A program made the translations under genes and the position numbers. This document shows, in pieces, positions 56,077 to 64,000 of a stretch of 64,000 nt of DNA. Position 1 is the first letter of the stretch. Each line of letters opens with the position of its first letter. This DNA comes from Pseudanabaena sp. Chao 1811. Lineage in GTDB: Bacteria > Cyanobacteriota > Cyanobacteriia > Pseudanabaenales > Pseudanabaenaceae. Under the pieces are notes generated by a model. It was not told the origin of the DNA, did no database searches, and worked only from the letters and a program-made list of their open reading frames with translations. The DNA lies in the NCBI RefSeq assembly GCF_027942295.1, contig NZ_CP101416.1, forward strand, positions 2,776,501 through 2,840,500, read 5' to 3'.

Positions 56077-57021
56077 TTATAACTGACAAGTCCGACTAGA
56101 AATACTACCATTGGGTAAAATTGTCTGGCAGATTTTGACTCCATTTCGCCAACCGACATCTAAAACAGCATGTTTTAAGTTAGCACCATCAAGATTGACC
56201 CCATATAAATCCGCATTAGTTAAATCGGCATTAGTTAAATCCGCATTAGTTAAATCGGCATTCCACAAGTTTGCAGAATTGAAACAAGCTCCCCGCAAAA
56301 TTGTACCGCGCAAAATTGCTTTGCTCAAATTGCTACCACTGAAATTAACATTGCTTAGATTCAGTCCACTCAAATTTGCTAAACGGAGATTGATCTCACT
56401 AAAATCGATGCGATCAAGATCTGCCTCACGTAAATCTGCCTCACTTAAATTTGCACCTTTCAAATTTGCACCATGCAGGCTAGCTTCACTCAAGTCAGCT
56501 TCACTGAGGTTGGCATTTTCTAAGTTAGCCCGACTTAAATTTGCCCGAAACAAGAAAGCATGGTGCAGGTTAGCATCGCTAAAATTAGCTTTAGAAAGAT
56601 TAGCTTCTAACATATAAACTCTTTGCAGATTTGCATTTTTAAAATCCATACCATGCAAATTTGTACAATTGAGAATGGCAGTTCTTAAATTCGCATTGTC
56701 TAAGCTTACATTGCTAAACTGCACACCACTTAATGAGGCATAACTAAAATTTGTACGGGTGATATTAGCGTTACTGAGATTAGCATCTAATAAAGAAGCC
56801 CCACATAAATCAGCATCAGATAAATTTGCACCTGAGAGATCAGCATTACTGAGATCTGACTCCCATAAATTGGCGAAAACCAAGTTGCTATTTCGTAAAA
56901 TTGCACCACTAAGATCGACTTTACTTAAATCTACTCCCATCAAATCTACTCCCTCAAAGTTTCTTTCACCTTGGGAATAACGTTCTATCAAATTGCGTTT
57001 CTTAGCAAAGTGATTCAACAT
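56077..57021 (-). CDS. Pentapeptide repeat protein
   Basis: 314 aa made almost entirely of about 50 A(D/N)LxX-type pentapeptides from residue 20 to 290 (LSNADLSGANLSDADLCGAS and similar), which fold into a right-handed quadrilateral beta-helix. There is no signal peptide or additional domain, and a short Cys-containing tail. Cyanobacteria carry many such proteins of unknown role; some mimic DNA. The gene shows strong internal repetition at DNA level. ATG at 57021. Confidence 0.9.
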   Translation of the reverse strand: MLNHFAKKRNLIERYSQGERNFEGVDLMGVDLSKVDLSGAILRNSNLVFANLWESDLSNADLSGANLSDADLCGASLLDANLSNANITRTNFSYASLSGVQFSNVSLDNANLRTAILNCTNLHGMDFKNANLQRVYMLEANLSKANFSDANLHHAFLFRANLSRANLENANLSEADLSEASLHGANLKGANLSEADLREADLDRIDFSEINLRLANLSGLNLSNVNFSGSNLSKAILRGTILRGACFNSANLWNADLTNADLTNADLTNADLYGVNLDGANLKHAVLDVGWRNGVKICQTILPNGSISSRTCQL

Positions 57022-59948: not shown

Positions 59949-61757
59949 TTACTGTCGCTTAGTTTCATTGATTTGCCATTGTCCTGAAGCTTCATCCCAT
60001 ACTAGATTCATGCGTAGGGTTTCGGGAAATAGAGCTTTACCCTTTTGATAGGTTAAATCAATGTCAATAATCGCTGAGTTTTCCTTAACTTCAACTAAAC
60101 GAGAGCCATTAACGGAAACCTTATCAATGGTGCGCCACCAGTCTGTGAAAGTACTATATCCACCTGCGCGATCGCTTTGAAATTTGGGTGTGAGATTTTT
60201 CCATGCGTTTTGAAATTGGCGATCGTTAACGAGACTGTAGTAGCTCTTGACAAACTGTTCGGGAGAGGGTTTGGCTTTTTGAGAAGGAGTTACAGTTGGC
60301 GTAGGCGTGGGGGTAGGAGTTGCGGAAGGAGAAGTTGATGATTGGAACTGATCACCTGTCACCCGATTTACTGGATCTTTCGCATTTAGACTTGCAAAGG
60401 CACAGTAGGCATCAGGAACACGCTTAACATAGGTCTTGAGATCGTTAATGCAACTATTTGCCTCGGTAAAAGGAACTGCATAGACTTGATAATATTGACT
60501 ATTACCGAGATTCGGATAGTCGGGTATCCAGAAAGCTCCTGCTTCTTTAAAACCTTGAGATGTCAGAGCTTGTACTCTTAAATTGGCATAGTTTTTATCT
60601 TCAAAAGCTGAATCTGCTAGGAAATAGAATGCTTTTTTATCAACTGGTTTATTAAAGGGAGAGATTTTATTCCAGAAGGCGACGATGCCGCCATTTTGCG
60701 ATACGACTACACCTAAGGCGATCGCTGCACCAATTGCGCCACCGACGATGACAGTTGCTAAAGCTTGACCAAAGATCTTCTTTTTCGGATCGTGCTGTGG
60801 TTGATAGACGTAAATATCAGGTTGATTTTGAATTGCAGGTGGCGTATAGCCTCTAGGTGTTACTGCCACCGTCTGCATATTCGACATCGCTGGTTGAATG
60901 GGAACAGGTTGTAATGGATGAGATTGATTTGGTACTTGGCTAACCTGTAGAGCATTTAACATTTCTCGTGCAGAATTGTAGCGATCGCGAGGATCAAATT
61001 GGAGTGCTTTAGTAAATATTGCCTTTAAATCAGTGCTAATCCCTGTTACTTGGCTTTGCCAGAGGACTTCACCCGTTTGGGGATCAGTGCCTAGCTCTTG
61101 GGGATATTTGCCAGTGAGTGCGAAAATGGCAGTCAGGGCAAGACTGTAGAGATCGCTTGCAAAAAAAGGTCTACCTGCCGCCTGCTCTGAAGCCATAAAC
61201 CCCGGTGTCCCGATCACGATTGAATGTGCTTGCTGTGAAGAACTACGAATCGTACTTACATTCAGAGTTTCTTTGACTGCGCCAAAATCGATGAGGACAG
61301 GTTCCCCAGCACGCAAAATAATATTATCAGGCTTAATATCACGGTGAATAATGCCGCGTTCATGGACATAAATGAGCGTTTGCAGAATACTGCTCATCAG
61401 TCTTCGGACAGCATCTTCATTCCAGTTGCCATTACGTTCTATCTCTTGAGTTAAAGTTAATCCATCAATCCATTCTTGGACGAGATAGAACAAGCCATTC
61501 TCAATAAAGTTGGCATAAAGTTTAGGGATATAGCGACTTTCTTCTCCTAAGGCTTCGAGTACCACTGCCTCTCGGTGAAAGCGCTGTTGCAATAACTCAT
61601 ACATCTGTGGATTATCAGCAACGGGCTTAAGTTGCTTGATCACACAACGACGATTAGATGGCATTTTGGTATCTTCAGCCAAATAGGTCTCACCAAAGCC
61701 ACCACTACCGAGGACGCTAGTGACGCGATAGCGGTTATCTAAAAGGTTTGACAGCAT
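59949..61757 (-). CDS. Serine/threonine protein kinase, single membrane segment, extracytoplasmic C-terminus
   Basis: 602 aa. Kinase domain 1-275: LGSGGFGETYLA glycine loop, VIKQLKP lysine, IIHRDIKPDNI catalytic loop, LIDFGAVK (DFG), TPGFMASEQ. A Pro/Gln-rich linker, one membrane helix at about 332-352, then a segment at 375-455 resembling a SPOR-like fold. A Thr-Pro repeat spacer (about 475-490) and a C-terminal NTF2-like domain (SPEQFVKSYYSLVNDRQFQNAW) follow. It is a PknB-like sensor kinase; the outside domain probably senses the envelope. Four 11-bp repeats lie just upstream (61768-61811). Confidence 0.9.
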   Translation of the reverse strand: MLSNLLDNRYRVTSVLGSGGFGETYLAEDTKMPSNRRCVIKQLKPVADNPQMYELLQQRFHREAVVLEALGEESRYIPKLYANFIENGLFYLVQEWIDGLTLTQEIERNGNWNEDAVRRLMSSILQTLIYVHERGIIHRDIKPDNIILRAGEPVLIDFGAVKETLNVSTIRSSSQQAHSIVIGTPGFMASEQAAGRPFFASDLYSLALTAIFALTGKYPQELGTDPQTGEVLWQSQVTGISTDLKAIFTKALQFDPRDRYNSAREMLNALQVSQVPNQSHPLQPVPIQPAMSNMQTVAVTPRGYTPPAIQNQPDIYVYQPQHDPKKKIFGQALATVIVGGAIGAAIALGVVVSQNGGIVAFWNKISPFNKPVDKKAFYFLADSAFEDKNYANLRVQALTSQGFKEAGAFWIPDYPNLGNSQYYQVYAVPFTEANSCINDLKTYVKRVPDAYCAFASLNAKDPVNRVTGDQFQSSTSPSATPTPTPTPTVTPSQKAKPSPEQFVKSYYSLVNDRQFQNAWKNLTPKFQSDRAGGYSTFTDWWRTIDKVSVNGSRLVEVKENSAIIDIDLTYQKGKALFPETLRMNLVWDEASGQWQINETKRQ

Positions 61758-61925: not shown

Positions 61926-61978
61926 TAGCTCTAACAACCTGTGGCGGCGCGAAGCGCCGCCACAGGTTGTTAGAGCTA
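61926..61978. terminator. Long palindrome after the BLUF-cyclase gene
   Basis: Perfect 24-bp stem (61926-61949 with 61955-61978, loop CGAAG), beginning 1 bp after the minus-strand stop codon. The core CCTGTGGCG is shared with 28103 and 54597. Confidence 0.8.
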
Positions 61979-61979
61979 A

Positions 61980-63044
61980 TTATGCTTGACAGCTAATTAG
62001 CTCTAGGTGTTGCTTGATCTCTTGTTTTAATTTATGAAAATCTGATTTTTGGAAGGTCAATATATCGTCAACCGAATAGACTTCGACGATACTTTCTCTT
62101 CCCTTGGTATGAAAATCACCAAGTCTAACAGGCTTCCAGCGATCGCTTAATCCTGCACGTACAGAAGCAGAAAATACGAGAAATCGATTTAACTGTCTGG
62201 TGAGAGCTTCTATTCTGGCGGCAACATTGACGGCATCACCAATCACTGTATATTCCTTCTTTGTTTGCGAACCGATATTTCCCTCTAACACAATTCCTTT
62301 AGATAGACCAATACCAATGTAGAGAACTCGTAATGGACTATTGGCAGGGGCTTGATTGCGTAAAAGCTCTAGTTCCGCCAGAATATCTAGGCTTGCCTGT
62401 AGGGAATCATCTGCGCGATCGCCATCAAAATATGCCATTACGCAATCGCCAATAAATTTCGTAACTTCACCACCTCTTGCAGTAATCGCTCGCGTGCAAA
62501 TGGTAAAGAATTGGTTGAGCAAATCCACCACTTCCGCAACTTGCAATTTTTCAGTAATGCCAGAAAATGAGATAATGTCGGCAAATAAGATGATTTTATC
62601 GCTATAGAGTGGTTTGAGGGTGAGGGGATTAATCCCATTCTCAATTGCTTGCAAAACTCCTGACTGGGTATAGTTAGCGAGAATGGTTTGAGATTCGCCT
62701 AGAGTTTGCAAAAGAATTTTAATTGGTTGCAAGAGAATGTCATTATTTTCATCAAGAACGATGACTTCCATTGACCAATCAGGAAACTTACGGGTTGAAA
62801 CATTTAATTCAGATTTCAAGCATAAAATATTGCTATGACGATCATCTCGTAAAATCTTCTCGTACAGCCGATCAATGCGGTCTTCATCTCCTTCTAAAAT
62901 TTGAAAGAAAATGCTGTTACAGCTTAATAAAACCCCTGTAATTCCTTCCCTAGAATTATTAGTCTGAGAAATATGTCCAATGGCTTCAATTTCTCTTTTG
63001 CTAAGCGATCGCGAGAAGCTACTAATATAAGTTAGCCTTTTCAT
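61980..63044 (-). CDS. BLUF-domain class III adenylate cyclase (photoactivated cyclase, OaPAC-like)
   Basis: 354 aa. BLUF domain 1-100 with Y6 (RLTYISSF), Q48 (FFQILEG), W90 and M92 (FPDWSM), the flavin-switch residues at the same positions as in OaPAC of Oscillatoria acuminata. A short linker is followed by a class III cyclase domain (about 145-345): metal Asp D156 (LFADI) and D200 (FIGDC), adenine-specifying K196 and T266 (TKF, EYTVIGD), and NVAARIE with the catalytic Asn/Arg. Blue light should raise cAMP synthesis. The cyanobacterial cAMP receptor Sycrp1-type route is a possible target. A second cyclase gene lies 295 bp upstream on the same strand. ATG at 63044. Confidence 0.92.
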   Translation of the reverse strand: MKRLTYISSFSRSLSKREIEAIGHISQTNNSREGITGVLLSCNSIFFQILEGDEDRIDRLYEKILRDDRHSNILCLKSELNVSTRKFPDWSMEVIVLDENNDILLQPIKILLQTLGESQTILANYTQSGVLQAIENGINPLTLKPLYSDKIILFADIISFSGITEKLQVAEVVDLLNQFFTICTRAITARGGEVTKFIGDCVMAYFDGDRADDSLQASLDILAELELLRNQAPANSPLRVLYIGIGLSKGIVLEGNIGSQTKKEYTVIGDAVNVAARIEALTRQLNRFLVFSASVRAGLSDRWKPVRLGDFHTKGRESIVEVYSVDDILTFQKSDFHKLKQEIKQHLELISCQA

Positions 63045-63100
63045 AAAATTGAGAAGTGATTTACATGAAAGAATTCGATCTGAGACATGTTAGTGTTTAA

Positions 63101-63207
63101 TTACAGCGCTTGTCGCTTAAGCCCAAAGCAATAGGCTTGTTTGAAGGTATTGGCAACAAAGCCTTCAAATAAGCTGTTGTGGTTGATTGGAGCAAAAATT
63201 GCTGTAA
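63101..63207. repeat. Possible small element with ends TTACAGC/GCTGTAA
   Basis: TTACAGC (63101) and GCTGTAA (63201) are inverted and 107 bp apart, in the gap between the two cyclase genes. Parts of these ends also flank palindromes near 890 and 20360. Weak evidence. No gene is supported in 63045-63339. Confidence 0.25.
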
Positions 63208-63339
63208 AAGATGAAAAATCCAAGCTTCTTTACTACTTGTAACGCAAATAAGGAAAGAAGGGTTATAAGCAATACGGCGTAAATGTTTCTTCCCGTATTC
63301 TATATTAATGCTTCTGAGCGCATCGGACTGTGATTTTTA

Positions 63340-64000
63340 TTAGCGATCGTAAAGCTTAAACAGTGTTTTGCGTTGTTTGTAAGACGCTAGAGTTTGCTTT
63401 CCTATGAGTTCAAGCTGCTCGTTAATCTCTTGTTTTAGATGGTGGAAATCTGATTTTTGAGATGCCAAAGGATTATCAATTGAATATACTTCCACGATCG
63501 CTTCCCTTCCTTTAGCATAGAAATCCCCCATTTTTAATAATTTCCAGTGATCGCTGAGTCCCTCTCGTACTGCTGCCGAAAACACTAAAAATCTATTTAA
63601 CTTTCGCGTTAGCGATTCGATTCTTGCGGCAACATTAACGGCATCGCCGATGATTGCATACTCTTTTTTGGTTTGAGAACCGATATTTCCTTCTAAAACT
63701 GTTCCTTTAGATAGTCCAATCCCCACATAGAGAACTCGCAACGGGCTATTAACAGGCGATCGATCTCGTAAAATTTCTAATTCTGAAAGAATGTCTAGAC
63801 TTGCTTGTAAAGCTTCGTTTGCACGATCACCATCGAAATATGCCATCACACAATCGCCGATAAACTTCGTAACTTCACCGCCTTTAGCTGCGATTTCTGA
63901 CGTGCAAATCGTAAAAAATTGATTGAGTAACTCCGCAACTTCGGTCACTTGGAGTTTCTCAGTCATACTGGCAAAGCCCATAATATCTGCAAAGAAAATA
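63340..64000 (-). CDS. Class III nucleotidyl cyclase, second tandem copy (5' end outside window)
   Basis: The cyclase part continues to the window edge (FFADIMGFASMTEKLQ), so 63981 is not the true start. 220 codons are visible. Metal aspartates in FFADI and FIGDC, the lysine in VTKFIGD, and NVAARIE are present. The second adenine-contact position, Thr in the neighbouring protein, is Ala here (EYAIIGD). Very similar to the BLUF-cyclase 61980-63044, so an N-terminal BLUF domain is likely but not visible. The C-terminus is about 20 residues longer than its neighbour's. Confidence 0.88.
   Translation of the reverse strand, partial: IFFADIMGFASMTEKLQVTEVAELLNQFFTICTSEIAAKGGEVTKFIGDCVMAYFDGDRANEALQASLDILSELEILRDRSPVNSPLRVLYVGIGLSKGTVLEGNIGSQTKKEYAIIGDAVNVAARIESLTRKLNRFLVFSAAVREGLSDHWKLLKMGDFYAKGREAIVEVYSIDNPLASQKSDFHHLKQEINEQLELIGKQTLASYKQRKTLFKLYDR

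Follow-up and report, generated by a model that had tools for sequence, protein, structure and literature searches.

Tandem genes for putative OaPAC-type blue-light-activated adenylate cyclases in Pseudanabaena

The window analysed here, the whole stretch of 64,000 nucleotides (G000:C1:2776501-2840500 of the 4.73 Mb single-contig genome of Pseudanabaena sp. Chao 1811), harbors a gene whose product, PAC-A, is very probably a blue-light-activated adenylate cyclase (PAC), judging from its sequence and from the analogy with OaPAC of Oscillatoria acuminata. By itself, PAC-A is an ordinary member of the OaPAC/bPAC type; the new part is its tandem arrangement with a second gene of this kind, PAC-B, which lies directly upstream on the same strand and encodes a protein that is 74% identical to PAC-A. 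The original prediction missed PAC-B because the end of the window cuts it, and was incomplete in that the strain has two tandem PACs and one lone BLUF protein. The features of the locus are listed in window coordinates.

59949-61757, minus strand: Ser/Thr protein kinase gene, downstream of PAC-A on the same strand
61926-61978, no strand: perfect inverted repeat with 25-base arms and a 3-base loop, one base past the PAC-A stop
61980-63044, minus strand: PAC-A, BLUF and class III cyclase, 354 aa
62088-62594, minus strand: PAC-A class III cyclase domain, residues 151-319 (D156, K196, D200, T266, N273, R277), by Pfam and alignment
62670-62750, minus strand: PAC-A connector helix alpha3, residues 99-125, from the predicted model (pLDDT there ~57-64)
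62766-63044, minus strand: PAC-A BLUF domain, residues 1-93 (Y6, N30, Q48, W90, M92), by Pfam and alignment
63045-63339, no strand: gap of 295 bases between PAC-B and PAC-A, from the locus map
63340-64000, minus strand: C-terminal part of PAC-B, cut by the window; whole gene G000:C1:2839840-2840952, 370 aa

PAC-A and its closest known relatives

The list of open reading frames gives PAC-A an ATG start and 354 codons for amino acids, as predicted, and adds the strand, which the prediction had not given. Pfam assigns residues 1-93 to BLUF (96.9 bits, cut-off 25) and residues 151-319 to Guanylate_cyc (61.9 bits, cut-off 21.9), confirming the two-domain organization. In a phmmer search of the PDB, the top match is OaPAC (5x4u, E = 1.9e-131), aligned gap-free with residues 1-350 on 1-350, and the second is bPAC (E = 1.9e-112). 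The alignment with OaPAC has 202 of 350 positions identical (58%), a similarity that, by sequence, is far beyond chance. The N-terminal BLUF domain contains the Tyr, Gln, Asn and Trp/Met switch residues, and the C-terminal class III cyclase domain contains both metal-binding Asp residues, the base-recognition Lys and Thr, and the transition-state Asn and Arg. All eight residues named in the prediction (Y6, Q48, W90, M92, D156, K196, D200 and T266) are present and numbered as in OaPAC, and N30 and the catalytic N273 and R277 are likewise kept. OaPAC and bPAC are the closest proteins over the whole length by phmmer, Foldseek and trees. The sequence itself, the order of the domains, the residues retained and the fold search thus all support the predicted likeness to OaPAC.

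OaPAC (PDB 5x4u, 4yus) shares the domain order and the numbering of switch and catalytic residues with PAC-A, but it has 18 residues after E348, compared with 6 in PAC-A, and an Asp at position 264, which is Glu in PAC-A. The Beggiatoa sp. enzyme bPAC, or BlaC (PDB 5m27, 5mbb), resembles PAC-A in domain order, fold and its similarly short C-terminus; with ~50% identity it is nevertheless less identical to PAC-A than OaPAC is, and it comes from a different organism group.

An AlphaFold2 model of the PAC-A monomer, built from 21 sequences (pLDDT 80.6, pTM 0.64), shows both domains, BLUF and cyclase, folded as expected and joined by a connector of low confidence. Helix alpha3 (residues 99-125), the dimerization feature of the OaPAC/bPAC type, is predicted as a helix in this monomer model, again with low confidence. 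Foldseek matches of the model at ranks 1-24 are all OaPAC and bPAC structures, and the cyclase domain superimposes on the isolated bPAC cyclase (5mbg) with a TM score of 0.93 and an rmsd of 1.9. The structural comparison with OaPAC, which had been proposed as a check, therefore stands at the level of the folds and top matches but not of the domain orientation, which is poorly predicted and does not match OaPAC, raising the whole-chain rmsd to ~7-8.

The tandem locus and its distribution

PAC-B, like PAC-A, has OaPAC as its nearest known protein (phmmer, E = 2.2e-123). The genome contains 19 further matches to the PAC-A query, 18 to its cyclase part and one to the lone BLUF protein, a BLUF-only ORF of ~147 aa that lies elsewhere in the genome. 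The best named relatives are from Pseudanabaena. At E <= 1e-60, matches are present in 23 of the 38 genomes of the order, and every one of these belongs to the genus of the window, where a PAC is found in 23 of 26 genomes (this strain included). In an even sample of the phylum, with scoring of the five best candidates from each genome, a strong match was found in only 4/386 genomes and 2/142 genera. PACs are therefore uncommon in the sampled cyanobacteria as a whole and the rule in Pseudanabaena, so that the predicted rarity of small soluble PACs holds for the phylum sample but not for the strain's own genus. No published work on Pseudanabaena PACs was found in the literature searched; the single candidate paper deals with an orange carotenoid protein.

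Seven genomes have both copies in tandem, three have B only (G008, G015, G014), and the other positive genomes have A only. The order is B then A in G000 (this strain), G022, G032 and G024, and A then B in G019, G029 and G030, in the last of which B runs off the contig. In a maximum-likelihood tree, the B sequences form a single branch (support 100/99) apart from the A copies and the OaPAC group; all other Pseudanabaena sequences count as A copies. The branching order among these is poorly resolved, and the B clade may lie within them. Values of dN/dS are 0.02-0.06 among the A pairs tested and 0.06-0.13 among the B pairs, indicating from sequence that purifying selection acts on both PAC-A and PAC-B. 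Between A and B of one genome, synonymous sites are near saturation (pS 0.63-0.76). Because of this near-saturation and the low dN/dS, it appears that the duplication is old within the genus and that both copies have been maintained, one or the other probably having been lost repeatedly. The idea that B arose from A by a recent duplication was rejected, as B is a supported clade of its own with near-saturated synonymous sites relative to A, and so was the notion that B is a pseudogene, since it is intact and has a low dN/dS. Between G000 and G032 (L060), synonymous divergence is 1.36 for PAC-A as against 0.35 for PAC-B and 0.44 for rpiA, which suggests the exchange of one A allele through recombination.

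Several variant genes were observed. In Pseudanabaena sp. FACHB-1998 (G024; L009 3986-4804), B is without its first 103 codons, which comprise the whole BLUF domain, through a clean deletion that joins the upstream DNA to codon 104. The remaining cyclase, intact and 96% identical to PAC-B, adjoins a complete PAC-A and may either work without regulation or stem from a gene in decay. In a metagenome-assembled Pseudanabaena genome, a PAC (L025 5001-6165) is broken by a frameshift close to residue 295-306, which is either real or an assembly error. A PAC with 49% identity and a long branch (L033 1808-2851) is on a contig binned as Candidatus Omnitrophota, reflecting either transfer or mis-binning.

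The locus is ordered as rpiA (divergent), the PAC gene or genes, and then the Ser/Thr kinase gene, in the same orientation as the PACs. The kinase gene adjoins the PACs in 20 of the 21 Pseudanabaena genomes in which the contig reaches far enough, including four without rpiA in the flank examined, and none of the Pseudanabaena neighbor genes was found at the OaPAC-like loci examined outside the genus. The gap between the PAC and kinase genes is 22-23 bases in three genomes and up to 352 in others, so that co-transcription is likely in some genomes only; a link between kinase and PAC is, from this gene order, a lead.

The core of the inverted repeat that follows PAC-A, GGCGGCGCGAAGCGCCGCC, occurs 47 times in the genome, compared with 0 for the reversed control, and the repeat thus looks like a dispersed REP-type element. 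A role as a dedicated PAC-A terminator was rejected, given the 47 occurrences of the core and a palindrome that is not followed by a T-run. Similar GC-rich palindromes are found at the same place in several relatives.

Differences between PAC-A and PAC-B

All BLUF switch residues and D156, K196 and D200 are kept in A and B; the differences that set the two groups apart in this strain are in the C-terminal tail and at position 266. After E348, PAC-A has 6 residues and most A copies have ~10, whereas every complete B has 22, with a conserved ending, K-Q-[RS]-K-T-L-F-x-L-Y-D (KQRKTLFxLYDR). In a model of PAC-B, the tail prolongs the last helix at a pLDDT under 50. The 18-residue tail of OaPAC lowers photoactivity, which at one light dose rose 30-60-fold when more than 9 C-terminal residues were removed, although the same tail fused to bPAC caused no inhibition (PMC6937261). 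Since the B tail is unlike that of OaPAC and the fusion left bPAC uninhibited, an inhibitory role does not transfer automatically to B.

The PAC-B of this strain keeps all switch and catalytic residues except that at position 266, which is Ala. The equivalent residue of bPAC, T267, is together with K197 a base-recognition residue (PMC8522238). B carries Ala266 in G000, G022, G032 and G024, and A carries it in G019, G012 and G025, a pattern that requires at least four changes on the tree. One copy has Thr266 and the other Ala266 in G000, G022, G032, G024 and G019, and both have Thr in G029. Because three A copies, including two single-copy genes, also have Ala266, it may be neutral, and its interpretation as a loss of function was not adopted, as the two single-copy genes that carry it are intact.

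From sequence, we infer that the tail and position 266 could affect gain or specificity. The reading we favor, if tentatively and with more doubt than conviction, is that the pair provides graded outputs, in which A, with its short tail and Thr266, would be the standard, higher-gain enzyme, whereas B, which combines a long conserved tail with Ala266, would be weaker or less selective for the base. It is possible, though rather doubtful, that the pair further constitutes a two-channel light sensor, in which responses to different light doses, or mixed dimers, would encode light intensity in cAMP, or in cAMP with some cGMP.

An alternative is that A and B form heterodimers. Since the active site of class III cyclases sits at the dimer interface, a mixed dimer would combine the half-sites and sensors of both and thereby add a third enzyme that responds to light in its own way. 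The dimer-forming architecture, with active sites between subunits (PMC6937261), is conserved, and both genes are intact and adjacent in G000, G022, G032, G019 and G029. However, most genomes have A only and three have B only, implying that each works alone, and the two genes are 295 bases apart here and may be expressed separately; heterodimers are, on balance, unlikely. Improbable, too, is that PAC-B, and not PAC-A, has drifted to a relaxed base choice through the change of Thr266 to Ala and makes some cGMP. The recurrence of Ala266, in B of four genomes and A of three, and the engineered light-activated guanylate cyclase bPGC, which carries T267G with K197E and D265K (PMC4569695), would fit such a drift, but the other two positions altered in bPGC, Lys196 and Glu264, are kept here, and Lys196 favors ATP.

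Putative light signaling and comparison with known systems

Going by residue conservation and the OaPAC literature, PAC-A would be a soluble homodimer of the OaPAC/bPAC type. The FAD of its BLUF domain would absorb blue light, upon which the Y6-Q48-W90/M92 hydrogen-bond network would rearrange, and the signal would travel down the paired alpha3 helices, a role taken from OaPAC (PMC6937261), to the cyclase dimer, which would convert ATP to cAMP. In keeping with a production of cAMP in blue light, PAC-A retains all the residues that are known to be required and evolves under purifying selection. That PAC-A is instead a light-independent cyclase, its activity not governed by the BLUF domain, is very improbable: sequence alone cannot reveal light control, and LiPAC, another PAC, had no measurable activity in oocytes (PMC8522238), but the BLUF switch residues are invariant in all Pseudanabaena sequences having a BLUF domain and in 8 OaPAC-type sequences, and the 58% identity is to a demonstrated light-activated enzyme.

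By analogy with blue-light motility in Synechocystis, CRP-type regulators would sense the cAMP made by PAC-A. The genome has 12 matches to cNMP-binding domains, two of which are CRP-like proteins with the G-E...R-S/T cassette. Blue-light cAMP signaling affects motility in Synechocystis (PMC7690835), as does the light-dependent cyclase LprA in Leptospira kobayashii (PMC9043183), and the Pseudanabaena PACs may, by analogy with both, have similar effects. In Synechocystis, a motile cyanobacterium, the Cya1-SYCRP1 system likewise connects blue light with cAMP and with regulators of the CRP type, but the blue-light receptor of Cya1 is separate and unclear (PMC7690835), whereas sensor and cyclase are one protein in PAC-A. 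Two different PAC subunits in one organism are also found in Euglena (PAC alpha and beta), where, however, BLUF and cyclase domains are each present twice per subunit and the subunits form a heterotetramer (PMC6937261), as opposed to the two single-unit tandem genes described here, which are known from sequence.

PACs are optogenetic tools, and their gain is of interest: OaPAC and bPAC differ ~100-fold although their structures are alike (PMC6937261). In Pseudanabaena, more than two dozen PACs form a natural series, divided between two paralogue groups and accompanied by one natural BLUF deletion. The two groups differ in the regions implicated in PAC tuning, the C-terminal tail and a base-recognition residue. 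The genus includes motile filamentous strains, in which a physiological role of PACs is testable. Elsewhere in the window, positions 56077-57021 encode a 314-residue protein whose sequence is nearly all pentapeptide-like repeats (A[DN]LxxAxL).
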